Assembly: GCA_021775835.1 (NCBI GenBank)
Contig: JAJFHC010000144.1
Location: 1 to 12,188, forward strand
Reading direction: 5' to 3'
DNA from: Hyphomicrobiales bacterium
GTDB taxonomy: Bacteria; Pseudomonadota; Alphaproteobacteria; Rhizobiales; JAJFHC01
Length of the DNA: 12,188 nt
Under the pieces are notes generated by a model, which worked only from the letters and a program-made list of their open reading frames with translations, searched no databases and had not been told where the DNA came from. The translations under genes were made by a program, and so were the position numbers. Shown piece after piece: positions 1,584-12,188 of the stretch. How positions within the stretch are numbered: position 1 is the first letter of the stretch; each line of letters begins with the position of its first letter.

Positions 1584-2534
1584 TCACTCAAACTCCATCT
1601 GTTCGAACACGCGTCCGGCATTGCGTTTTGCCAATTCCTTGAAGGTGTCCAAGTGGGCAAAAGCTGACTGATCGACATCGTAGGCGTCCTGAAGACTGCC
1701 TCCGGCATCGATCAGTTTTTTGATTTCACCACGCAGAAACACCAGGTAGTCCTTTGTGTAGCGGCGCACTTGCGCAATGTTCGTAGGGTGACCATGGCCG
1801 GGGATGACATAAAGCGCTCCGAGGGCCTCGAATTTCTCCCAACTCTCAAGCCAGCCGGCGGTATCCGTGTCGTCGAAGATCGGGGGCAGCCGTTCGTGAA
1901 ATGCCATATCACCGGCAATGACGAGTTTGCGGTCGGGCAACCAGACGGAGATGTCACCCGGCGAATGCGCCGGACCGATCATCCGCACTTCGACTTTGAA
2001 GTTGCCCATCTCCACAACTTCCAACTCCGCAAAAGTCTTCGTCGGACCCTGGACTTTTGTGCCGTCGGCCTTATCTCGATTATACCCCTTCATGCGATCC
2101 AGAATGTCATAGGCGCGTTCTTCGAACTCCGCCGCCGCATCCTCATGGGCCAGGATTGGCACACCCTGCTCTGCCCAGTAGCTGTTTCCCAGCATGGCAT
2201 GTCCCTGACCATTTTCATTTATCACCAGCTTTACGGGCTGGTCTGTAATCTTGCGGATCTCTGCGTGAAGTGCCTTGGCGAGAACATAAGCCGCACCGCC
2301 ATTGACAACGATGACCCCCTCGCCTGTCACGATGAATGAGAGATTGTTGTTGTGGCCGGTATTCTCGTAGGTCGGCGGTCCGCTGGCGCCGATGGCCGAC
2401 CAGACGTGCGGGATGACCTCGACAGGCTTTGAATACAGAGCCGATTGCGGATATTGGTCCGGGATTGACTGACTGGCCCAAGACGTCGTGACCAAGGCGA
2501 GAGTTCCGAAAAGTGCGGCAAACATCATACGCAT
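1584..2534 (-). CDS. soxH: SoxH-like periplasmic metallo-beta-lactamase-fold protein
   Basis: A 316-residue protein with a signal peptide (residues 1-20, ending TTSWA) followed by a metallo-beta-lactamase fold. Later metal-site elements are present: GPAHSPGD with His190, AGDMAF with Asp209 and VIPGHGHP with His247. The first, normally HxHxDH, aligns without gaps to N108-x-Q110-x-H112-A113 in INENGQGHAMLGN, so most of the usual first zinc ligands are gone, and the usual Asp before the first helix is Asn78. MBL-fold SoxG/SoxH proteins are known in Paracoccus-type sox clusters, and length and position fit SoxH; their exact reaction is unsettled. The start has a strong AAGGAG site nine bases upstream. 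It has its own promoter at 2566-2593. It might be catalytically altered, use one metal, or represent the norm for this subfamily. Confidence 0.72.
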   Translation of the reverse strand: MRMMFAALFGTLALVTTSWASQSIPDQYPQSALYSKPVEVIPHVWSAIGASGPPTYENTGHNNNLSFIVTGEGVIVVNGGAAYVLAKALHAEIRKITDQPVKLVINENGQGHAMLGNSYWAEQGVPILAHEDAAAEFEERAYDILDRMKGYNRDKADGTKVQGPTKTFAELEVVEMGNFKVEVRMIGPAHSPGDISVWLPDRKLVIAGDMAFHERLPPIFDDTDTAGWLESWEKFEALGALYVIPGHGHPTNIAQVRRYTKDYLVFLRGEIKKLIDAGGSLQDAYDVDQSAFAHLDTFKELAKRNAGRVFEQMEFE

Positions 2535-2565: not shown

Positions 2566-2593
2566 ATTATATACTTATATGCGAATGTTACAA
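2566..2593 (-). promoter_or_regulatory. soxH promoter with ATTCG operator inside the -35/-10 spacer
   Basis: On the minus strand a consensus -10 TATAAT (2571-2566) lies 16 bases after a -35-like TTGTAA (2593-2588). The spacer holds ATTCGCATATAAGTAT (2586-2571), one mismatch from ATTC-N8-GAAT and closely related to elements before soxX and soxC. A repressor bound there would block RNA polymerase directly. The transcript would start near 2559, about 24 bases before the ATG. The -35 overlaps the end of the gap beside the hydrolase stop codon (TAA, 2597-2595), so soxH can be expressed apart from the genes above it. Confidence 0.65.
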
Positions 2594-2594
2594 T

Positions 2595-3527
2595 TTAATT
2601 GCTCTGTTGCGCAACGAACTCCGCAATCAGATCAGCGGCGTCCTCCGAGTAGAAATCGAGGAACATGTGGCCGGCGTCTTCAATGATCTTCAATGAAATG
2701 TTCTTTTTGGCGCCAAGCTGACCAATTCTACGGGCCACATCGGGCACAACCGTGTCGGCGGAACCGGCAATCACCAGGATCGGCCGGGCAATCTCTGACA
2801 AGAGAGAAGTTGTATGCATTCGAGGATCGCTGCCGTAATAGGAGACAACGCTCGCGGCGGTGGCTTTCGACGCACCACAGTACACAAAGCCCGGCATGTC
2901 GATGAACTCAGAACCCTTGCCGGCTTTCACAAGTGTCCTTGCCTGATCGAGCAGTGGTCCAAGTTCGGCCTTGAACCGTTTCTGGAACCCGGCTGCCGTA
3001 TCCGCCGCCGACGCCCCCATGGCAGGCGCCAACAGTATGAGTTTGTCGAACTTGTTTTGTTCGGCCGCAAACCAACTCACCTGATTGCCACCACGACTGT
3101 GGCCAAACAGCGAAATCCTCGATGCGCCATTGGCGCGCAACCACTTGACCCAGGCGCCGATTTCTTCGACCGCATCCTCATGGCGGTGACTGTTGACTTG
3201 CGCGCAGTCATACATTCCCTTCCGCCGATCGATGCCCAGAGTGAGGGAATGGGCAAGCGATGCGACGCCACGCTCGGCCAGAAGCGTCTGCAAACCTTCA
3301 ACCAATTCCATGTCTTTGTGGGCCAGCGTTCCGTGGGTAATGAGGACAACGCCATCGGCCATTGAACCGTCGTCTGGCACAACCAAGTCACCTAGCGCGG
3401 TATAGCCGTCGATCCCGATTTCAACAGATGTTGTGCCCGCATGCACCGACTGCATCCAGGCTCCACAGACAATAATCCCGGCCACCAGGGTAAGGACGCC
3501 GCGCGCCACCGAAATTCTACCAGACAT
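2595..3527 (-). CDS. Secreted alpha/beta-hydrolase-fold protein in the sox operon
   Basis: A 310-residue protein with an N-terminal signal (hydrophobic residues 10-25, likely cleavage after SVHA at 30), so periplasmic. It shows the alpha/beta-hydrolase plan: oxyanion-side LITHGT (62-67), nucleophile elbow GHSRGG with Ser144, acid candidate Asp258 in AGSADTVVP, and His287 in EDAGHMF. The order and spacing of Ser, Asp and His are right for an active enzyme such as an esterase, thioesterase or peptidase; the substrate cannot be read from sequence. The ATG at 3527 lies inside the end of soxW (11-base overlap) with AAGGGGAT upstream, suggesting coupled translation. The open frame runs up to 3860, but that extension is soxW in another frame and precedes the signal peptide. 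It is not one of the named Sox proteins I know. Confidence 0.85.
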   Translation of the reverse strand: MSGRISVARGVLTLVAGIIVCGAWMQSVHAGTTSVEIGIDGYTALGDLVVPDDGSMADGVVLITHGTLAHKDMELVEGLQTLLAERGVASLAHSLTLGIDRRKGMYDCAQVNSHRHEDAVEEIGAWVKWLRANGASRISLFGHSRGGNQVSWFAAEQNKFDKLILLAPAMGASAADTAAGFQKRFKAELGPLLDQARTLVKAGKGSEFIDMPGFVYCGASKATAASVVSYYGSDPRMHTTSLLSEIARPILVIAGSADTVVPDVARRIGQLGAKKNISLKIIEDAGHMFLDFYSEDAADLIAEFVAQQSN

Positions 3528-4128
3528 CGGGCTTGATCCCCTTGGCCGCATGGTCCGCAAACTTGTCCTGCAGAAAGCGTTGAAACCCAACGCTCTCATA
3601 GGCCTTCTGGTCGACGAACTCGAACATTGACAAAAAGTGGAAAGGTTTGAAGTAGCCGGGAATACGGGCAACTTCCATATCCCGACCTGTCTTGCCGGCA
3701 GGAATGTTGGTATCAAAGAACTGAATCGTCGGTGTAAAATTGACCGCCCACTTGCGGGCAAGTGCCCGTTCTTCATGTTCGGTTCCGTCAAAATCAGTGA
3801 CGGTGCGCGATCCCCAGAGATTGAGTTGAAGAACCGCGAACTTCTGGCTAACGAACTCAACGATCTGCTTTTTCTGAAAATTCACGGCATGCATCTCTCG
3901 GCAATAGGGACAACCACGTTGTTCCCAAATGACTACAAGTCGTTTGTTTTCACCGGCCGCCTCCTTGTGGTCCTCCCGTAGGTCCAGGAAGGTCTCGAGA
4001 AACCATGGCTGCGTGTGCAGCCCGTCGTCATTGACTTCCAGTTCCGACGCCGCCCAACCGCTACCACCCGTGAACGCCGCCCCTGCAGCGATCAGGCAAC
4101 CGCTGCAAAACATCCTTCTGTCGATCAT
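3517..4128 (-). CDS. soxW: SoxW-type periplasmic thioredoxin-like protein
   Basis: A 203-residue thioredoxin-fold protein with redox motif C73-P-Y-C76 in WEQRGCPYCREMH and the conserved cis-proline region NFTPTIQFF (Pro133). The N terminus has two arginines and a hydrophobic stretch (DRRMFCSGCLIAAGAAF), an export signal that may be Tat-dependent, cleaved near residue 27. SoxW proteins take electrons from the membrane transporter SoxV/CcdA and reduce thiols or disulfides of Sox components such as the SoxY cysteine. In Paracoccus soxW sits beside soxV ahead of soxX; here it lies after soxF while a SoxV-like gene is at the far right. Start ATG at 4128 has AGAGGTGG upstream; the in-frame ATG at 4158 lacks a good site and would precede the signal peptide. 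It ends with TAG overlapping the next gene. Confidence 0.82.
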   Translation of the reverse strand: MIDRRMFCSGCLIAAGAAFTGGSGWAASELEVNDDGLHTQPWFLETFLDLREDHKEAAGENKRLVVIWEQRGCPYCREMHAVNFQKKQIVEFVSQKFAVLQLNLWGSRTVTDFDGTEHEERALARKWAVNFTPTIQFFDTNIPAGKTGRDMEVARIPGYFKPFHFLSMFEFVDQKAYESVGFQRFLQDKFADHAAKGIKPDVW

Positions 4129-4170
4129 GTTTCCACCTCTTGCCGGATCAAAGAACATTCGTCTGACACC

Positions 4171-5472
4171 TCATTTGAGACCATAGGTCTCCTGTAACAT
4201 CTGCTTGGGCCAACCGGCAGCGACCCGTGCATTCTCCTTGCGCTGCGATTCCTCATCGCCCACGTCACTTGTCGTTCTCTCTTTTGTTTTGAATGTTGTG
4301 CCCGCCACCTGATACGTCGCGGCCATGAAGACGGCATCACCCGTCGCCACCGTCGACCAACACTTGTCGAAGACCTGAATCTCTTCTTCGACCTTCATGT
4401 GCAGGAGGCGGTGAACGATATCACACGCCGCCAGGCGGGCTTCGACTTGAGCTGCGTGGGCTGATTTTGATAACTCCCCGACCGACGCTGAGTCGCCTAT
4501 CACATACACGTTTTCGTCGACCGTCGATCGCATGGTGGCAGCATCTATAGGCGCAAATCCGCTCTGGTCGGTAAGGCCCGATTCAACAAGCACCCGTGCA
4601 GCAGTCTGTGGAGGAACTACATTGAGGACGTCTGCGGTGAAAGTTTCGTCACGTGCGCTGACGGTACCTGTCTTGTAGTCCACGCTTTTGATTCCGCCGT
4701 GAAAATCCTTCGGCACCCATTCGACAATGCCATCATAATAGTCGGCAAAGGCGGCTTCGAATTGAGCCTGTAGCGGATAACTATCCTTGTCGTCGATGAT
4801 CACTACGGTGGCTTTTGGGTTACGTTCCTTGAACCAGTGTGCGGCCCGACAAGCACGTTCGTAAACGGCCGGTGGGCATCTGTGCGGTCCCGACGGTGCG
4901 GAAATCGCCAACCGTCCACCCTCAGGCACGGAACTAAACAGATCGATCAAATCTCTGCAGGACGATCCGGCGGTCCACAAAGGATCCGTCCTTGGGCCCT
5001 GCACGTCATCGAACGTCTTCCAGTCCAGAGACACTCCGGGAGCCGCGACGAGTATGTCATACTCCAGTGTTTTGGGAGATGCGTTGAGGGACTGGAGGTT
5101 CACCGTACGCTTTCCCGTGTCGATCCCAGTTGCCGTTGCCGGAACGACCGAAACACCAGTCCCGGTCAAGACCTTCGCAAGATCCACAGACTCCGGAGCG
5201 CACTCCTGCACCGTTGCAAAAGCATGAATGGAAAAAGGCGGGGAATAGGACTGGGTACCGGAGATCAGCTTGAGATCAATCGCGTCGCCGGCCAGCAGCC
5301 GAATGTTTTGCGCCACTGTAGCCCCTCCGACTCCCGCCCCAACGATCAATACGCGGGGTTTGGTCACGGCGCGGGCATTTGGCACGAACATCGGAGCAAG
5401 CGAAACGATAGACACTGTTGCCGCGATCATCCTCCGGCGGCTCAAATGGGACTTGCATGACGTGCGCGGCAT
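4171..5472 (-). CDS. soxF: SoxF-like flavoprotein (flavocytochrome c sulfide dehydrogenase flavin subunit family)
   Basis: A 433-residue protein with a Tat signal (SRRRMI at 11-16, cleavage near ARA at 35) and the FAD-binding glycine loop VGAGVGG (44-50). GDS at 326-328 is the second FAD contact. Along its length it follows the FccB/SoxF family, which oxidises sulfide to sulfur and passes electrons to a c-type cytochrome. Cys199 in HRCPPAVYERA matches one half of the family's redox disulfide. The partner, normally a Trp-Cys-Pro, aligns with F306-A307-P308, and the flavin-linking cysteine of a Tyr-Thr-Cys context aligns with Y76-S77-P78. So two of three functional cysteines seem absent. No cytochrome partner (soxE/fccA) is next to it. 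Start 5472 has AGAGGG eight bases upstream; the ATG at 5526 would precede the signal. It may be catalytically changed. Confidence 0.82.
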   Translation of the reverse strand: MPRTSCKSHLSRRRMIAATVSIVSLAPMFVPNARAVTKPRVLIVGAGVGGATVAQNIRLLAGDAIDLKLISGTQSYSPPFSIHAFATVQECAPESVDLAKVLTGTGVSVVPATATGIDTGKRTVNLQSLNASPKTLEYDILVAAPGVSLDWKTFDDVQGPRTDPLWTAGSSCRDLIDLFSSVPEGGRLAISAPSGPHRCPPAVYERACRAAHWFKERNPKATVVIIDDKDSYPLQAQFEAAFADYYDGIVEWVPKDFHGGIKSVDYKTGTVSARDETFTADVLNVVPPQTAARVLVESGLTDQSGFAPIDAATMRSTVDENVYVIGDSASVGELSKSAHAAQVEARLAACDIVHRLLHMKVEEEIQVFDKCWSTVATGDAVFMAATYQVAGTTFKTKERTTSDVGDEESQRKENARVAAGWPKQMLQETYGLK

Positions 5473-5549
5473 TGGATGACCCTCTGTCAGGCTTTCATTC
5501 GCCCCTTCGGCCCCAGTGAAAAGCAAGCCTTGAAACTATAGCACGGTGA

Positions 5550-6206
5550 TTAATCGATCGCCGCCGACGGATTCTTTTCTTCGTCCGGTGTTACATCGAG
5601 AACCAGGGCCCGCTTGGTGATCTCCACCACCGGCTTACAGTCCGTCATGCAAGGTTTCTGTTCGCTGATCATCGGCGTATCTGGTCTGGAGTCTTCGATG
5701 AAGTTATTCTCGTTCGGCATCCTGATCGATGAGAAGTTGTCCTTCGACAGAACAAAGTCAGCGTCCACAATATCGTTCATGTGCAGAAGGAATGCCGTTA
5801 CTGCATAAACTTCCTCGGGCTCAAGCGACTGGGCGTCACCAAAAGGCATGGACCGGTTGATGTAGTCAAAGACCGTGGACAGATAGGGCCAGTAGGACCC
5901 GATCGTCTTCTTTGGGTCTTCACCGGCCAGCGAGTCCTGGCCGCCCGATAACTCAGGCCATCTGTCGACGCCTTCCGCAAAATCGCCATGGCAAGAAGCA
6001 CATTTTTCGCTGAAGATTTCCTCGCCCTTAGTCACACTCCCCTGGCCGTCGGGGAGCCCCTGCCCGTCCGGTCGGACATCGATATCCCAGGCGGCGATTT
6101 CTTCTGGAGTTGCCTCCCGTCCAAGGTTCAACTTGCCTGCAAACGCCGCCTCCGAAAGAGACACGGTGGTCAGCAAGAACAGGGCGAATTTAAGATACTT
6201 CGACAT
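5550..6206 (-). CDS. soxD: SoxD, short monoheme cytochrome c subunit of sulfane dehydrogenase
   Basis: A 218-residue exported cytochrome c: signal peptide 1-23 (ending AAFA), heme motif C69-A-S-C72-H73, probable axial Met120 in RSMPFGD, then the linker seen in SoxD with CMTDC (186-190) and VVEITKRALVLDVTP. SoxD accepts electrons from the SoxC molybdenum centre. The Paracoccus-type SoxD I know is diheme, roughly 350-400 residues; this protein stops just after the linker, so the second cytochrome domain is missing. Only 77 bases separate its stop from soxF, so no broken remnant lies downstream. The ATG at 6206 overlaps the end of soxC by 17 bases and has GGCGAG seven bases upstream; ATG 6221 is an alternative that adds five residues. 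Confidence 0.87.
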   Translation of the reverse strand: MSKYLKFALFLLTTVSLSEAAFAGKLNLGREATPEEIAAWDIDVRPDGQGLPDGQGSVTKGEEIFSEKCASCHGDFAEGVDRWPELSGGQDSLAGEDPKKTIGSYWPYLSTVFDYINRSMPFGDAQSLEPEEVYAVTAFLLHMNDIVDADFVLSKDNFSSIRMPNENNFIEDSRPDTPMISEQKPCMTDCKPVVEITKRALVLDVTPDEEKNPSAAID

Positions 6207-7467
6207 TCTCAATCTCGCCATTGCTCTGAACATGCCAGGTCTGAATACCGTTGTTGTGATAGATCGAGTTGGTGCCGCGGACGGCACGCAACTGGTCCTT
6301 TGTCGGTTGGGCGTACCCTGTCGAGTCGACAGCCCTGGACTGCAACAGGAGCGGGCCGCCATCCCATTCGAACTCGTAGTAAAAACGGTGGAGCGCCTTT
6401 GGCAGACTGAGTCCGTCAATCCGGGCCCGGTGCCAGTTCTTGCCACCGTCAATCGTTACGTCGACCCGGTCGACCGTCCCGCGGCCCGACCACGCGAGCC
6501 CGGAAAGGATCGTGTGACCCTTGCCATGGGTAATCGGGGCTTGCGGACTTGGATTGGTGATGACCGACTTGCAGTCCATTTCCCAGGTAAACCGTCGCGC
6601 TTTACCGTTTTCCATGAGGTCGGTGTACTTCGACGTTTCCTCGCGGGCATGCCAGGGCATATCGCCGACTTCTATGCGGCGAAGCCATTTGACCCACATG
6701 TTGCCCTCCCAGCCGGGCACGACCAGACGAAGCGGATACCCCTGCTCGGGACGCAAGGCCTCGCCGTTCATCTTGTAGGCAACGAGGCAGTCGTCGAGCG
6801 CCTTCTCAAGCGGCACCGAACGGTTCATGCCCGAAGCGTCGCCGCCTTCCGGCATCAGCCAGCGGGCGTTGGTCTTCAGGCCGGCCTCCTCCAGGATATG
6901 CTTGAGAGAAACACCCGTGTACATGACACAATGAACCATGCCGTGAGTAAACTGGCAGCCATTGAGCTGTGCACCGCGCCATTCCATGCCCGAATTCGCA
7001 GCACATTCCAGAAAGTACAACTTGTTCGTGCGCGGAAAACGCATGAGGTCTTCCATAGTGAAGATCAATGGCTTGTCGACCAGCCCATTGATCATCAGCC
7101 TGTGGTCAGCCGGATCAATTTCCGCGATGCCGGCGTGATGGCGTTCAAAGCAAAGGCCGTTGGGCGTGATGATGCCTTCCAGTTCGTGCAGCGGCGTGAA
7201 ATTGACAGAGCTTTCCGTTGACGCTGTGAGCCAGCGCACATGCCGGCGAACGGTTTCCTTCTCAAACTCCGCAGGCGCCCCATAGGCACGGGCATCGACG
7301 CCCTCGCCCAGCGACTTTGACCAGTCTGGAATGTTGGGCGGCAAGTTTTCCGGATTGCCTGCGGCACCTGCAGACCTGACACCCGCCGTCAATGCGACGC
7401 TTCCCGCCGCAGCAGACGCAAGCAATGTTCTGCGGTTCATGACGGTGTTCTTGTTCATTTCACTCAT
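6190..7467 (-). CDS. soxC: SoxC, molybdopterin subunit of sulfane dehydrogenase
   Basis: A 425-residue sulfite-oxidase-family enzyme. Cys155 in YFLECAANSGMEWRG is the expected molybdenum ligand. The dimerisation domain follows from about residue 305 (NPSPQAPITHG), with IDGGKNWHRARI at 340-350 typical of the family. The N terminus has a Tat-type signal (MNRRTLLASAAAGSVALTAG from residue 10), consistent with export of a folded molybdoenzyme. With SoxD it removes six electrons from the SoxY-bound sulfane sulfur, so thiosulfate goes fully to sulfate. I start it at ATG 7467, which has GGAGG six bases upstream; longer frames would run through the promoter into soxB, and ATG 7440 also precedes the RR motif. 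The ribosome site can be paired in a small hairpin (7472-7486). Its length matches the family. Confidence 0.95.
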   Translation of the reverse strand: MSEMNKNTVMNRRTLLASAAAGSVALTAGVRSAGAAGNPENLPPNIPDWSKSLGEGVDARAYGAPAEFEKETVRRHVRWLTASTESSVNFTPLHELEGIITPNGLCFERHHAGIAEIDPADHRLMINGLVDKPLIFTMEDLMRFPRTNKLYFLECAANSGMEWRGAQLNGCQFTHGMVHCVMYTGVSLKHILEEAGLKTNARWLMPEGGDASGMNRSVPLEKALDDCLVAYKMNGEALRPEQGYPLRLVVPGWEGNMWVKWLRRIEVGDMPWHAREETSKYTDLMENGKARRFTWEMDCKSVITNPSPQAPITHGKGHTILSGLAWSGRGTVDRVDVTIDGGKNWHRARIDGLSLPKALHRFYYEFEWDGGPLLLQSRAVDSTGYAQPTKDQLRAVRGTNSIYHNNGIQTWHVQSNGEIENVEVS

Positions 7468-7471
7468 CAAC

Positions 7472-7486
7472 ATCCTCCAAGAGGAT
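7472..7486 (-). promoter_or_regulatory. Hairpin pairing the soxC ribosome-binding site
   Basis: In the mRNA sense the sequence reads ATCCTC-TTG-GAGGAT, a perfect 6-bp inverted repeat with a 3-base loop. The GGAGG ribosome site of soxC (7478-7474) lies in its loop edge and 3' arm, so folding would mask the site unless a ribosome or factor opens it. The stem is short, so the effect may be small. Confidence 0.4.
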
Positions 7487-7489
7487 AAC

Positions 7490-7516
7490 ATTACATATGA
7501 ATATACGAATATAAAC
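7490..7516 (-). promoter_or_regulatory. Candidate internal soxC promoter with ATTCG operator
   Basis: The 61 bp soxB-soxC gap is AT-rich compared with its neighbours. On the minus strand ATTCGTATATTCATAT (7510-7495) aligns with the operator before soxH, and the next bases give TGTAAT (7495-7490), 5 of 6 matches to the -10 consensus, in the same register. GTTTATATTC (7516-7507) is an exact 10-base match to a stretch before soxX. No good -35 is visible at normal spacing, and TATCCT (7487-7482) is an alternative -10. The site suggests that soxCD and the genes below it can be started separately under the same regulator. Confidence 0.5.
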
Positions 7517-7528
7517 GCGACAAAACGA

Positions 7529-9217
7529 CTACACACCAACCACTTTGACAGCGTCGTTCGGCGCAACGCTCACTGGTGAATGGGTTTTCAGATGATTTTC
7601 CACCACATCCCAGATCGGCGGTCCTTCGGTCTCCTGGTTGATGCTTGCCCAACCGGCGACCACATATTCCCGGACGGGGTCAATCGGCGCATTGTCCTTC
7701 AGACTCACCATGCTTGAGATCCGTTGGCCAATCGGTTTCAGAGGATCGATCGTGTAACCAAGCCCGCCCACACGAACCATGTCACCGCCCTGCTGATAGT
7801 ATGGATCAGGGTTGAAGAGGTTGTCCGCCACATCTTCCAGCACCTCCTTCAGGAAGGCACCAGTCATCTTCGTGCGATAGGCCGCCGGATAGCTCATGGC
7901 ACAGACATTGTGCAGGTCTTCGACTGTAATATCCTGTCCCGGCAACAGGCTCGGGCCCCACCGGAACCCCGGGGAAAGAGCAATTTCCGCATCGCGTTCT
8001 TCCAGCAGGGCCTGACAGATGAGGTCATCGACAGTCCCGTTGAAATTGCCCCTGCGGTAGAGCAGGCTGTCGGTTCGACCGACAACCCGTTTCAGTTCAG
8101 TTTCGTACGGTGCACGAACCTTCGTGACCAGTTCCGACATTTCCGGATCGGCGTCGATGACGTCTGAAAAAATTGGAATCAAGCGGTAACGGTATCCTTT
8201 GAGACCGTCCTGCCCCACGTCGAGATCGATCCTCGACAGAAACTTGCCATTTGAACCACTGGCGACGAGAAGAGTATTGCCGACCTTGAGCGGTTCCGGC
8301 AGGGCATCATGGGTGTGCCCGCACAGGATGACGTCTATACCGTCGACTTTGGATGCCACCTTGCGGTCGACATCGAATCCGTTGTGCGACAGGAGCACAA
8401 CCAGCTTCGCACCTCCTGCCCTTGCGGCCTTGACCTGCTTGCGGATCTCTTCTTCCCGAATGCCAAATGACCAGTTGGGTATCATCCAGCGGGGATTGGC
8501 GATTGGGGTATAGGGGAAGGCCTGACCGATAACGGCAATCTTGACACCGCCACGTTCGAACATCTTTGCTGCTTCGAACGCAGGTTCTTCCCACTCGTTG
8601 TCAAATATGTTGGCCCCCAGGAAGGAAAACGGCAGTTCTTCGACGATTTCCTTGACCCGGTCGGCACCCAGTGTGAATTCCCAATGACCCGTCATGGCGT
8701 CCGGTTCAAGCGCGTTCATGACCTCGACCATGTCGGCGCCCTTGGTCTGGAGAGCAGTGTAGCTTCCATGCCAGGTATCACCGCCATCCAGGAACAGCGT
8801 ATTGCCGGGACGCTCCGCCCGGATGTGTTTCAGGACCGTTGCGATACGGTCGATACCGCCCATGCGGCCGTATTGCCTGGCCAGAGACTCGAACCCTTCC
8901 GACTGCAGGGCATAGGCCTCTGCCGAACCGGCGGGAATGCCGTAACGTTCGAGAAAGTCGAGCCCGGACACATGGGGTGGCTGCCCCTTCGCCTCGCCGA
9001 CTCCAAGGTTGATGGAAGGCTCGCGAAACCAGACCGGTTTCAGTTGTGCGTGAATATCCGTCAAATGCGCGAGTGTGACATTGCCGAAGGGCTCGAACGA
9101 CAACAGGTCCGCCTGTGAGACTTTCTGCTGTGCGGCAAGCCGGTTCCAGGGCATGGTCCCGCCATAGATCGCCGCAAGCGCTCCTGTGGCTTGCAAAAAT
9201 TCCCGGCGTGACAGCAT
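7529..9217 (-). CDS. soxB: SoxB, dimanganese sulfate thiol esterase
   Basis: A 562-residue periplasmic hydrolase of the 5'-nucleotidase/calcineurin-like family, full length for SoxB. It has a Tat signal (SRREFLQATGA at 3-13). Metal and substrate ligands appear in order: Asp54 and His56 (TDIHAQL), Asp147 (GGDTWHG), GHWEFT with His178 (SoxB-specific form of the usual GNHE), Asn203 (GANIFDN), His278 (LLSHNG), and His301/His303 (CGHTHD). The C-terminal domain covers about residues 375-560. SoxB releases sulfate from the SoxY-cysteine-bound thiosulfonate. The start has CGGGAAA about seven bases upstream. The 111 bp gap to soxA (9218-9328) holds no gene and no clear promoter or terminator, so it is probably read through from soxX. 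Confidence 0.97.
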   Translation of the reverse strand: MLSRREFLQATGALAAIYGGTMPWNRLAAQQKVSQADLLSFEPFGNVTLAHLTDIHAQLKPVWFREPSINLGVGEAKGQPPHVSGLDFLERYGIPAGSAEAYALQSEGFESLARQYGRMGGIDRIATVLKHIRAERPGNTLFLDGGDTWHGSYTALQTKGADMVEVMNALEPDAMTGHWEFTLGADRVKEIVEELPFSFLGANIFDNEWEEPAFEAAKMFERGGVKIAVIGQAFPYTPIANPRWMIPNWSFGIREEEIRKQVKAARAGGAKLVVLLSHNGFDVDRKVASKVDGIDVILCGHTHDALPEPLKVGNTLLVASGSNGKFLSRIDLDVGQDGLKGYRYRLIPIFSDVIDADPEMSELVTKVRAPYETELKRVVGRTDSLLYRRGNFNGTVDDLICQALLEERDAEIALSPGFRWGPSLLPGQDITVEDLHNVCAMSYPAAYRTKMTGAFLKEVLEDVADNLFNPDPYYQQGGDMVRVGGLGYTIDPLKPIGQRISSMVSLKDNAPIDPVREYVVAGWASINQETEGPPIWDVVENHLKTHSPVSVAPNDAVKVVGV

Positions 9218-9328
9218 CTGTTTTCCCGATCAGCTTCGTCGATATCCAAGTGACAGAAGACGCAAACGTTACGTTGACTCGATCGAAGAGCGAGGCCCTC
9301 GTTCAACAACTGGTGCGTTAAGCCCGAC

Positions 9329-10174
9329 CTAGTTACGAACGGCAGGCGTCTCTACTTGCAGACCCTTGCCACGTTGCGCGAGATAGATTTCCAGGGCAAC
9401 GAACTCGTCAGAACCGCGTTTGTATGGAGTGGCGCGAATGTTGGCCATGCACCCCTTGAAACGGCGGTGAAGCGAGCCCAGTTTCTGCCACTTCAACCGA
9501 TAGGTTGGAAAACCATTCGATTGTCCTTGGCTCAGAAAATCTGCCCGGATGAATTTGCCGTAGTTCGCTTCATGGCAGTTGGCGCAGGACATGTCGAGCT
9601 GGCCGACCCGGGTGTAATAAAGCTCCTTGCCCTTCTCGGCCCAGGACTGCATCGGACCGTCAGCCTGAACATTCACCGGCATGCCGCGCGATTGATTGCG
9701 GACGTAGGCGGTCATGGAAAGCATCTGGTTGGATTCCCACTTCCACTCCTTGGCACCCATGTTTTCCGTACGGCAATTATTGACACGCTGTTCCATGGTC
9801 ATCGGCCGCTTCAGTTTCGCATCCCACTTTGGCATGGCCGCGCCGACACCTTTCATGGACTCAGCTGCGTCATTGTGACAGGACGCGCATGACTTGTCGG
9901 CCGACCCTTCAACCGTGTTCCACAGAGCCTCACCCTGTTCAACCCAGAGGAAGCCGGGATTTTCGAAGTCGTCCTGCTGCAGGGATTGCGTTTCCGGTGC
10001 ACGAAAATGCCAACCGGAGAGCAATTCCTCCAGAGGATGATCCTTGGACGGGGCCGCCGCTTTCACACTGGTGACACCCTCAGGCAGAGAATCGCTGGAA
10101 TTGACGGTTCCCGCCGAGAAAAGACCAATAGACGTCAGGACGCAAATCATCCCGGTTTTTGCTGATACCCTCAT
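9329..10174 (-). CDS. soxA: SoxA, diheme cytochrome c subunit of SoxAX
   Basis: A 281-residue exported protein with signal peptide about 1-26. Two heme motifs are intact: CASCH (96-100) and CANCH (197-201), making this the diheme form. Cys134 in VNNCRTENMG fits the cysteine axial ligand of the first heme. The active-site cysteine that becomes a persulfide is Cys242 in HRRFKGCMANIRATPY, and the upstream stretch YRLKWQKLGSLHRRF is highly typical. With SoxX it joins thiosulfate oxidatively to the SoxY cysteine. The start is preceded by GGGAAGGAAG with good spacing; a 30-base hairpin lies in the 55 bp gap after soxZ. Confidence 0.96.
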   Translation of the reverse strand: MRVSAKTGMICVLTSIGLFSAGTVNSSDSLPEGVTSVKAAAPSKDHPLEELLSGWHFRAPETQSLQQDDFENPGFLWVEQGEALWNTVEGSADKSCASCHNDAAESMKGVGAAMPKWDAKLKRPMTMEQRVNNCRTENMGAKEWKWESNQMLSMTAYVRNQSRGMPVNVQADGPMQSWAEKGKELYYTRVGQLDMSCANCHEANYGKFIRADFLSQGQSNGFPTYRLKWQKLGSLHRRFKGCMANIRATPYKRGSDEFVALEIYLAQRGKGLQVETPAVRN

Positions 10175-10190
10175 CGTGTGCTTCCTTCCC

Positions 10191-10220
10191 AGCCGTGACT
10201 GTTTTGTCCAGTCTGTGGCT
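10191..10220 (-). other. Imperfect hairpin between soxZ and soxA
   Basis: The plus strand reads AGCC-GT-GACTG-TTTTGTC-CAGTC-TGT-GGCT: an outer 4-bp and an inner 5-bp stem separated by a small internal loop, with a 7-base loop at the tip. No U tract follows on the minus strand, so it is not a classical terminator. It may mark an mRNA processing or stability boundary between the soxXYZ part and soxAB, just upstream of the soxA ribosome site. Confidence 0.35.
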
Positions 10221-10229
10221 AATCACTTG

Positions 10230-10559
10230 TCAGCTGACCGTCAGTTTTGATTTCTTTGAGTAGGTCTCGCCGTTGTCGTCCATCCAGATGAATTCGAATT
10301 CGCCGGACTCTTCAGCCTTCATTGAAAACTGAAAATACGGGTTTGCCGAAATCGCCGGATCGATATCAACAGAGAACACCTCCTCACCATTAAACTTGGC
10401 GATGAACTTGTTGATAATCTGCCGGGGGATGATCTCCCCGGTTTTCTTATCCTTCCGAAGGCCGGTTTCCATCTTGTGGGAGATCAGCGTCTTGATCGTG
10501 ACGATGTCGCCCTTGGCGGCTTTCTTGGGCGCTTTCACGCGTGGTTTTGGCTTTGCCAT
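10230..10559 (-). CDS. soxZ: SoxZ, partner of the SoxY sulfur carrier
   Basis: A 109-residue small immunoglobulin-like protein, normal length for SoxZ, with characteristic stretches RVKAPKKAAKGDIVTIKTLI (7-26), ISHKMETGLRKD (26-37) and MDDNGETYSKKSKLTV (93-108). It contains no cysteine and no signal peptide; it is exported as a complex with SoxY using the SoxY Tat signal. Together they form the carrier that shuttles sulfur intermediates between SoxAX, SoxB and SoxCD. The ATG at 10559 is preceded by GAGGAG about ten bases upstream; a longer frame to 10604 overlaps soxY and is not needed. The gap from soxY is 25 bases, consistent with balanced co-expression. Confidence 0.96.
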   Translation of the reverse strand: MAKPKPRVKAPKKAAKGDIVTIKTLISHKMETGLRKDKKTGEIIPRQIINKFIAKFNGEEVFSVDIDPAISANPYFQFSMKAEESGEFEFIWMDDNGETYSKKSKLTVS

Positions 10560-10584
10560 GTCTATTTGCTCCTCAGTGCGCCGG

Positions 10585-11034
10585 TCAGCCGCCGCATCCG
10601 CCAATGGTGACTTTCACCTGGCGTTTGGTCATGTGAAACGATCCGTCAGACAACTCCGCCACGGCGACAACGTTCTGTGTCTTGGCCAGGCGCATCCGTG
10701 TGGAAGCTTCAGCCACGCCGCTCTTTGGCGAAAAGTTGAAGGTGATGACTTCCGGCCGCGGATTGCCCTCTGCAACGATGATGACCCTCTTGACGTGATC
10801 ATCGGCCGTCATTGGGCTATCGACGGAAATAGACAGCGGCACGGTATTGCCGTTCTCGGCGATCTCCGGCATCTCCAGGGTGACCTTACCTTCTGCGGTC
10901 GTCTTGCCACCCGTAAACTTCGCGAGCACCGACTTTGCGTCATTGGTCTCTGCGGCAATGGCGGGGCCAATCGCCAGGGCGACCGCCGCTGCTCCGCCGA
11001 GAACCATGGCGTCTCTGCGTGTGATTGTTTTCAT
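10585..11034 (-). CDS. soxY: SoxY, sulfur carrier protein
   Basis: A 149-residue protein whose C terminus is the hallmark swinging arm GGCGG, with Cys147 as the covalent attachment point for sulfur intermediates. The N terminus is a Tat signal (TRRDAMVLGGAAAVALAIGPAIA, shown here in pieces: TRRDAMVLGG then AAAVALAIGP), cleaved near residue 28. The mature domain is the immunoglobulin-like SoxY fold (NTVPLSISVDSPM at 63-75, RVIIVAEGNPRPEV at 83-96). It forms the SoxYZ heterodimer on which the whole pathway runs and is the likely thiol target of SoxW. The start has GGGAAG seven bases upstream and lies 11 bases after the soxX stop. Confidence 0.97.
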   Translation of the reverse strand: MKTITRRDAMVLGGAAAVALAIGPAIAAETNDAKSVLAKFTGGKTTAEGKVTLEMPEIAENGNTVPLSISVDSPMTADDHVKRVIIVAEGNPRPEVITFNFSPKSGVAEASTRMRLAKTQNVVAVAELSDGSFHMTKRQVKVTIGGCGG

Positions 11035-11045
11035 GTCAGTCTTCC

Positions 11046-11516
11046 CTATTCCCTGAGGGTCATCACGTAGGCGATGATGTCTTCGATCTGTTGTCCGGAA
11101 AGGATTGTCTTGTCCTTGAACTTCTTGGCCATCCGGGCTCCCGCATTAACCCGGTAGAATCCCGGCATAATGGTTTCATCTCCAAACACAGCCTTTGAAT
11201 TGACCAGGATCGCTCTCAACTGTGCCTCTGAATAGCGGCTGCCGGCGCCATCGATCGGCGGACCGATTTCGCCGTGGAACGGCTTGCTGGTCAAATCCTT
11301 GTTGGCATGACACGCAAGGCAGTTACCCAGCTTGCGGTTGGCAAACCACTTCTTCCCGTCTGCCACGTTGCCAGGCGCCTTTGTCAGCGATGCACTGACC
11401 TCGACATCCTTTAGAACGACTTGATCCGGTGGTGTTGCGTCGGCGATCGCCGCGCTGACGCCCAAGGTGCATCCCAACACGACGCAGGACGCAACCCATC
11501 TGATTGCTTGCTTCAT
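11046..11516 (-). CDS. soxX: SoxX, monoheme cytochrome c subunit of SoxAX
   Basis: A 156-residue exported cytochrome with signal peptide about 1-26 (ending AAIADA), one heme motif C66-L-A-C69-H70 and a probable axial Met117 in TIMPGFYRV. GPPIDGAGSRYS (85-96) and the C-terminal IEDIIAYVMTL helix are typical of SoxX. With SoxA it oxidatively couples thiosulfate to SoxY and passes electrons to small c-type cytochromes. It is the first gene of the core run, behind a 174 bp region with an operator, and its mRNA leader is predicted to be about 107 bases. Start supported by AGAGGA nine bases upstream. Confidence 0.96.
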   Translation of the reverse strand: MKQAIRWVASCVVLGCTLGVSAAIADATPPDQVVLKDVEVSASLTKAPGNVADGKKWFANRKLGNCLACHANKDLTSKPFHGEIGPPIDGAGSRYSEAQLRAILVNSKAVFGDETIMPGFYRVNAGARMAKKFKDKTILSGQQIEDIIAYVMTLRE

Positions 11517-11630
11517 TCCAGTGTTTCCTCTTCGTCCGCGTTCGCCGGATCGAGGGTCCTAAAGGGACCTTGTTTTCACTCCGACCTGCAGCGCCCCAAA
11601 GACTGTCAGAGATAGAAACTAAAATCAATG

Positions 11631-11665
11631 ATAATATTCGCATAAACGAATGAAAGAATATAAAC
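11631..11665 (-). promoter_or_regulatory. soxX promoter/operator with perfect ATTC-N8-GAAT palindrome
   Basis: Positions 11636-11651 read ATTCGCATAAACGAAT on the plus strand: ATTCG-N6-CGAAT, a perfect 5+5 inverted repeat. This matches ATTC-N8-GAAT, the site type I recall for the ArsR-family persulfide sensor SqrR; SoxR and BigR are close relatives. On the minus strand the palindrome runs directly into TATTAT (11636-11631), a good -10, so binding would cover the promoter. A second half-site, GTTTATATTC (11665-11656), is shared exactly with the soxC region. The rest of the ccdA-soxX gap (11517-11630) is the predicted leader and shows no gene. Confidence 0.65.
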
Positions 11666-11690: not shown

Positions 11691-12188
11691 TCATCCAACA
11701 CGGCCAAGCCCCGGCAGACTCTCCAGCAGGTAGAACGCAATCTGACTCATCATGCCCGTCAAAAATGCCACACCGGTAAGAATCAGAAGCACACCCATGA
11801 CAACCTGGATCGTGTTCATATGAGACCGAAGACGGGGCATGGCGCGCATGAAGGGCCCGGCGAACGCGGCCGCAACGAGGAACGGCAAACCGATCCCAAG
11901 GGAATAGGCCGACAGCAACACAACACCGCCACTCACGGTTTCTTCGGCACCGGCAGTGAACAGTATTGCTGCCAGTACAGGACCGACACACGGCGTCCAT
12001 CCAAAGGCAAAGGCAAGCCCCATGACGAAGGCACCAAACAAGCCCGGCGGCTTGCGGTTCACATGGACACGGGCCTCCCGGTAAAGAAAACCGATGCGCA
12101 GTACGCCAAGAAAATGCAGCCCCATCAAGATGATGGCAATGCCCGCCACGACTGACAGCGTGCGCATGTGTTCTTGGACAAACTGCCC
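11691..12188 (-). CDS. soxV: SoxV/CcdA-type membrane thiol-disulfide transporter (partial, N terminus beyond window edge)
   Basis: The frame is open to the right edge, so the true start is outside the window; an internal Met at 12167 is not the start because conserved family sequence precedes it (QFVQEH). The visible 165 codons are the C-terminal part of a CcdA-family protein: VAGIAIILMGLHFLGVLRIGFLYREAR, here seen as a membrane segment and loop, then FAFGWTPCVGPVLAAILF with one of the two redox cysteines (codon 11990-11988), and two further helices. CcdA-type SoxV carries electrons from cytoplasmic thioredoxin across the membrane to periplasmic SoxW. It is codirectional with soxX but 174 bp away with an operator in between. 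A general cytochrome-c-maturation CcdA is the alternative; context favours SoxV. Confidence 0.82.
   Translation of the reverse strand, partial: GQFVQEHMRTLSVVAGIAIILMGLHFLGVLRIGFLYREARVHVNRKPPGLFGAFVMGLAFAFGWTPCVGPVLAAILFTAGAEETVSGGVVLLSAYSLGIGLPFLVAAAFAGPFMRAMPRLRSHMNTIQVVMGVLLILTGVAFLTGMMSQIAFYLLESLPGLGRVG

Follow-up and report, generated by a model that had tools for sequence, protein, structure and literature searches.

Candidate SoxR/SqrR-type operators before soxX, soxC and soxH in a Hyphomicrobiales sulfur-oxidation cluster

In the accessible portions of the papers cited here, the binding site of SqrR from Rhodobacter capsulatus is given as ATTC-N8-GAAT (PMC9774250) and its targets as sulfide:quinone reductase and other genes (PMC9143464), and BigR is described as acting on sulfide detoxification genes (PMC5823870). 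By the same sources, SoxR-regulated promoters lie between soxS and soxV (PMC5748708), SoxR of Hyphomicrobium denitrificans bound four of five probes and was released by polysulfide (PMC10451225), and a soxSRT gene arrangement occurs (PMC11582611). Here we examined a stretch of 12,188 nucleotides (nt) from a Hyphomicrobiales bacterium (contig JAJFHC010000144.1; the whole stretch is called the window), the minus strand of which carries an alphaproteobacterial sox cluster. Three blocks in this window, before soxX, soxC and soxH, are very probably SoxR/SqrR-type operators that would hold the promoters of the Sox core, the dehydrogenase and soxH off until sulfane sulfur arrives. The regulator family, the motif and sox genes as targets are already known; the internal operators, before soxC (elsewhere soxB) and before soxH, extend them. 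In the accessible text of the sources that our literature search covered, no operator is described before soxC or soxH; since the binding studies of Paracoccus pantotrophus (2005) and Pseudaminobacter salicylatoxidans (2007) fell outside that search and are known to us through references only, an earlier description may exist there.

The original prediction, made by a model from the sequence, had placed one operator type at three promoters of the cluster, and the three 16-nt blocks were found in the letters at the coordinates and on the minus strand that it gave. Operator 1 (11636..11651), 135 nt before soxX, is the only perfect ATTC-N8-GAAT dyad in the window. Operator 3 (2571..2586), 52 nt before soxH, has GTAT instead of GAAT, one mismatch in the eight core bases, and operator 2 (7495..7510), 43 nt before the ATG of soxC, joins an exact left half to ATAT in place of GAAT, two mismatches. 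All three are at predicted promoter positions of sulfur-oxidation genes. The last T of each block is, as had been noticed, the first base of a hexamer that resembles a -10 element: TATTAT at soxX (11631..11636) and TGTAAT at soxC (7490..7495), both recognized by eye, and TATAAT at soxH (2566..2571), judged from its letters. At soxH a -35-like TTGTAA (2588..2593), also present in the relative locus L161, is separated from TATAAT by 16 nt, and the dyad would occupy this spacer between the two putative promoter elements. Fourteen of 21 positions had been counted as identical in all three sites; our recount of the ungapped 21-nt blocks gives 13. A pattern made from the three window sites had 9 overlapping or reversed matches in the window, compared with 1.83 expected.

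A matrix independent of the window was then used to rank every position in it. Scanning the species-representative genome collection for SoxB yielded at least 591 candidate stretches, the best 80 of which were used; the nearest SoxB among the matches listed, at 80% identity, is that of locus L001. Exact ATTC-N8-GAAT sites upstream of soxX numbered 25 (two in L078), and after the L016 site was dropped the remaining 24, all from other genomes, were made into a symmetrised 20-nt matrix. Over 12,169 positions this matrix ranks the soxX site first (13.99), the soxH site second (10.45) and the soxC site third (6.81). When its columns were scrambled symmetrically (n=2000), 0.5% of the resulting matrices equalled the real one in all three gaps between genes, and 2.3% yielded at least three window hits above threshold. 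Because the training sites had been chosen by the ATTC-N8-GAAT rule, the eight core bases are built into the matrix. We also made a check free of that rule, in which every dyad of 4-nt halves spaced 2-14 nt apart was counted per upstream region. At soxX, with the window left out, ATTC-N8-GAAT was the commonest dyad (31 of 88 upstream regions); it was the second at soxB (8/92) and the fourth at soxC (10/76); at soxV (76 regions) it was outside the top eight.

The matrix was also run over the 160 nt upstream of each gene in the 80 loci and additional loci, with identical regions counted once. Sites scoring at least 9 were found at 49 of 83 soxX genes, a count that is partly circular as it includes the training sites, and at soxS (28/80), soxV (21/74), soxB (18/87), soxC (12/71), soxW (11/76), a soxT-like gene (6/75) and soxY (3/86). 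None reached 9 at soxZ (0/86), soxA (0/84), soxD (0/71), soxF (0/40) or soxR (0/71). With 300 scrambled matrices the mean fractions were 0.1-3.2% across genes; the real value was reached by none of them at soxX, soxS, soxB, soxC and soxW, by one at the soxT-like gene and by eight at soxY. In these relatives the motif is thus enriched before soxX, soxS, soxV, soxB, soxC and soxW. We then took the 74 loci that have soxX, soxB and soxC and applied one threshold (9) to all, at which neither the window nor L161 counts as having a soxC site (6.8 in each). An operator was present at soxX only in 23 loci, at soxX and soxB in 17, at soxX and soxC in 9, at soxC only in 4, at soxB only in one and at all three in one. 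By these counts an internal operator precedes soxB or soxC, hardly ever both. Mutual exclusion of the two is suggestive, with Fisher p 0.03 at threshold 6.5 and about 0.10, short of significance, at 8, 9 and 11 (kinship uncorrected).

The closest relative that we found was reached through SoxH. A search of 297 genomes in the order of G001, 207 of which had a match, found the best SoxH (90% identity) in genome G038, whose sox locus, L161, encodes a SoxB 92% identical to that of the window and repeats its gene order, with soxR and soxS in addition ahead of soxV. L161 has sites at soxX (15.8), soxC (6.8) and soxH (16.6), and one between soxS and soxV (8.8). The operators are more strongly conserved than their surroundings: 21/21 positions are identical at soxX, 21/21 at soxC and 20/21 at soxH (62/63 in total), compared with 113/153, 35/40 and 31/39 (179/232) for the remaining positions of these gaps (pooled Fisher p 1.4e-5). 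A pattern drawn from the soxX and soxH sites of G038 has two perfect matches in that whole genome, those two sites themselves; at one place with a single mismatch (C36:93967) no sulfur gene was recognized by eye among the open reading frames, no search having been made. L001 and L016 have a perfect dyad before soxC at the same place as operator 2, and the L001 site is the sole perfect match to ATTCNNNNATNCGAAT in its genome. As the L001 and G038 patterns come from those genomes' own sites, they establish rarity, not independence. These data bear on the possibility that SoxR operators are present only at soxX and soxH, the soxC block being a relic or a piece of AT-rich promoter and soxCD being transcribed by readthrough from soxX. 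Such a reading gains from the replacement of GAAT by ATAT, from the score of 6.81 and from the presence of a soxC site of at least 9 in only 14 of the 74 loci, but it appears unlikely given that all 21 bases are kept in L161, that L001 and L016 have perfect dyads in this position, and that further soxC sites occur (12/71, with 0/300 controls as high).

The operator at soxH recurs as well. Among 36 soxH genes with at least 60% identity and 1.2 kb of upstream sequence, 13 have a site of at least 12 within that distance (control mean 0.59, highest 8; 0/300 controls reach 13), and 15, the window (10.4) included, have one of at least 10 (control mean 1.4, highest 13). The site lies 50-60 nt before soxH in the window, L161, L162 and L135, and also in L134 (score 11.9), with weaker sites (6.6-6.9) in L136, at 70 nt, and L140; across the site L134, L135 and L136 resemble one another and are therefore not independent. 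In L142, L143, L145, L049, L051, L055, L057, L062, L074 and L078 the site precedes, by 16-39 nt, a gene of about 300-323 codons that is the immediate upstream neighbour of soxH. L057 (Sulfitobacter aestuariivivens) and L074 (Tateyamaria omphalii) have sites at soxX and soxB in addition to that of the soxH unit. In L057, L074, L078, L170, L171 and L173 a strong operator is separated from soxH by a gene of about 300 codons, which in both examples examined (L170 and L057) belongs to the metallo-beta-lactamase superfamily. In genomes G062 and G284 soxH is on a different contig from the sox core; its site is strong in G062 and weak in G284.

That the likeness of the three blocks arose by chance among AT-rich promoter sequences is extremely improbable. 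All three gaps are indeed AT-rich (GC content 0.37-0.38 around the sites) and 0.5% of scrambled matrices equal the real one, yet a matrix built elsewhere ranks the three sites first to third, the operators are conserved selectively in L161, sites accompany soxH units, and recurrence is gene-specific, with nothing at 9 or above at five other sox genes. We reject this explanation; the claim of one operator type at three promoters is supported by the ranking, the conservation in L161 and the recurrence at the same genes in other alphaproteobacteria.

The original prediction had named an ArsR-family sensor of the SoxR/SqrR type as the reader of these sites and had advised looking for an ArsR-family gene nearby. 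In L001 and L161 a soxS-soxR pair is immediately upstream of soxV on the opposite strand, so that a SoxR gene next to soxV falls just past the homologous edge of the window, which supports the suggestion. In L001, L161 and further relatives soxR is followed, on its own strand, by a soxT-like gene for a YeeE-like transporter. Among PDB entries the L001 SoxR best matches the 6o8k-6o8o group, labelled 'ArsR family', whose chains we take to be R. capsulatus SqrR. The sensing cysteine pair (C40 and C106) is invariant in the SoxR of four relatives and the closest PDB chain, and the reading helix, VSQQLARLR, is the same in all of these. A different ArsR-family protein, BigR-like or another paralogue, could in principle read the operators: the L001 genome has 8 PF01022 matches, and BigR, HlyU and YgaV are near in sequence. 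We consider this very unlikely, since SoxR is encoded within the clusters of the relatives (in 60 of 67 loci that extend far enough to show it, 5 loci near a contig edge being skipped), a soxX operator of at least 9 is commoner with soxR than without (37/60 vs. 1/7, p 0.037, kinship uncorrected), and the reading helix of SoxR is that of the closest PDB chain.

The reading we prefer, SoxR/SqrR-type operators at all three promoters, is based on the sites, on one matrix that finds them, on their selective conservation, on recurrence at the same genes, and on the gene and the residues of SoxR in relatives. From these we infer a SoxR in this genome, its binding and repression, the promoter elements and the response to sulfur. 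The gene for SoxR, an ArsR-family sulfane-sulfur sensor of the SqrR type, would lie past the 12188 end in a soxS-soxR-soxT unit divergent from soxV. When oxidisable sulfur is lacking, a SoxR dimer would sit on each dyad, directly upstream of the -10 element and touching it, most clearly at soxH. Because the dyad abuts this element, RNA polymerase would be barred from the promoters of soxXYZAB, of soxCD and its followers, and of soxH. Once sulfane sulfur bridges the two SoxR cysteines, SoxR would come off all three operators, and the core, the dehydrogenase and soxH would be expressed jointly.

Several observations weigh against this model. No regulator gene is present within the 12,188-nt window. 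The right half of the soxC operator is degenerate, and this site scores 6.8 in the window and L161 alike. No operator was found before soxH in L001, an absence explained by the overlap of the soxH start with the end of the hydrolase gene, and 21 of the 36 soxH genes have no site of at least 10 within 1.2 kb. Nineteen of the 74 loci have no operator of at least 9 at soxX, soxB or soxC, and at soxV one of 300 scrambled matrices equalled the real one. Phasing to the -10 element also carries little weight as evidence: at soxC, offset 15 (4.38 of 6) is nearly equalled by the mirror offset -3 (4.19), and offset 15 is not the best phase at soxX, soxB or soxV. Two of the seven soxH rows in the phasing sample were unusable, L205 (soxH truncated at the end of the locus, and the soxC site taken in its place) and L167 (hit 10 nt from the start). 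Strict phasing was accordingly rejected as proof. A second, overlapping register 8 nt off was seen at L204:11969/11977, L205:9331/9323 and L207:8804/8796. As a sign of cooperative binding a second register 8 nt away was rejected, as the best secondary offsets (+8, -8 and +6) are strongly negative on average over 117 sites.

More broadly, we lean towards the view that alphaproteobacterial sox clusters are parallel sets of SoxR promoters, not one operon, with operators at soxS/soxV and soxX, often one internal operator (at soxB in some lineages or at soxC in others, hardly ever both), and one heading the soxH unit, which is kept even with soxH on another contig. To our knowledge the role of soxH in sulfur oxidation is unclear; if the view is true, SoxH would take part regularly in the response to sulfane sulfur, tied to its sensor in several lineages, and soxB or soxCD would be a separately dosed module. 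Separate promoters under one sensor would allow soxCD and soxH to be expressed without depending on readthrough from soxX, and it can be tested directly if one sensor sets the Sox core and the SoxCD dehydrogenase through a promoter for each. The SoxR operator matrix can be carried from one genome to another and allows sox regulons to be predicted from sequence.

Some features of individual lineages were noted during the scan. In Bradyrhizobium (L014, L015, L021, L024, L034 and L036) the operator (13.6-19.6) precedes a soxW-like gene instead of soxX, except for one weak soxX site in L015. In soxX promoters of Rhodobacterales (for example L044:7553, L056:7600 and L080:7595) a strongly conserved block close to TTGTTGTTGC comes right after the operator; about 16-23 of 25 sites agree per position, and the block may be a promoter element or the site of a second protein. 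Locus L008 is titled Oceanobacillus sp. HTM 045, yet its sox cluster is of alphaproteobacterial type (SoxB 70% identical to that of the window), so its record title or assembly may be wrong.

The genes of the window, identified from open reading frames and family models, run on the minus strand from the 3' part of soxV (11691..12188, CcdA-like, PF02683), cut by the window edge at 12188, through soxX, soxY, soxZ, soxA, soxB, soxC and soxD to a flavocytochrome c flavoprotein (soxF-like), a thioredoxin, an alpha/beta hydrolase, soxH and a universal stress protein. Operator 1 is followed by soxX (11046..11516, TIGR04485) and then soxY, soxZ, soxA and soxB, and operator 2 by soxC (6190..7467, TIGR04555), whose start is placed at the ATG at 7467 after GGAGG, and soxD. 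Operator 3 is followed by soxH (1584..2534), a protein of metallo-beta-lactamase fold (PF00753) that matches SoxH-related NCBIfam models only below their cut-offs.

Among known regulators, BigR is of the same ArsR branch, and its structure (PDB 3pqj) matches the L001 SoxR with an E value of 9.6e-20; it differs in having sulfide detoxification genes as targets, as far as the accessible account goes, and the L001 SoxR, at 109 bits, is below the cut-off of 155 of the NCBIfam BigR model. SqrR of R. capsulatus is closer. In the accessible text it has the same ATTC-N8-GAAT site, the closest PDB chain (6o8k-6o8o group), taken to be SqrR, has both cysteines and VSQQLARLR in common with the relatives' SoxR, and its aligned identity with SoxR is 56%. 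It differs in its reported targets, sulfide:quinone reductase and others, whereas the window sites are at sox genes. The SoxR systems of P. pantotrophus, P. salicylatoxidans, Bradyrhizobium diazoefficiens and H. denitrificans have an ArsR-family repressor beside soxS. The relatives of the window share this soxR-soxS-soxV layout, with sites there (soxS 28/80, soxV 21/74), and the succession of soxR and a soxT-like gene corresponds to the soxSRT arrangement as outlined in PMC11582611. Unlike these SoxR systems, as far as the accessible descriptions go, the window and its relatives have the same type of site also before soxC (in other lineages, soxB) and ahead of soxH or the soxH unit.

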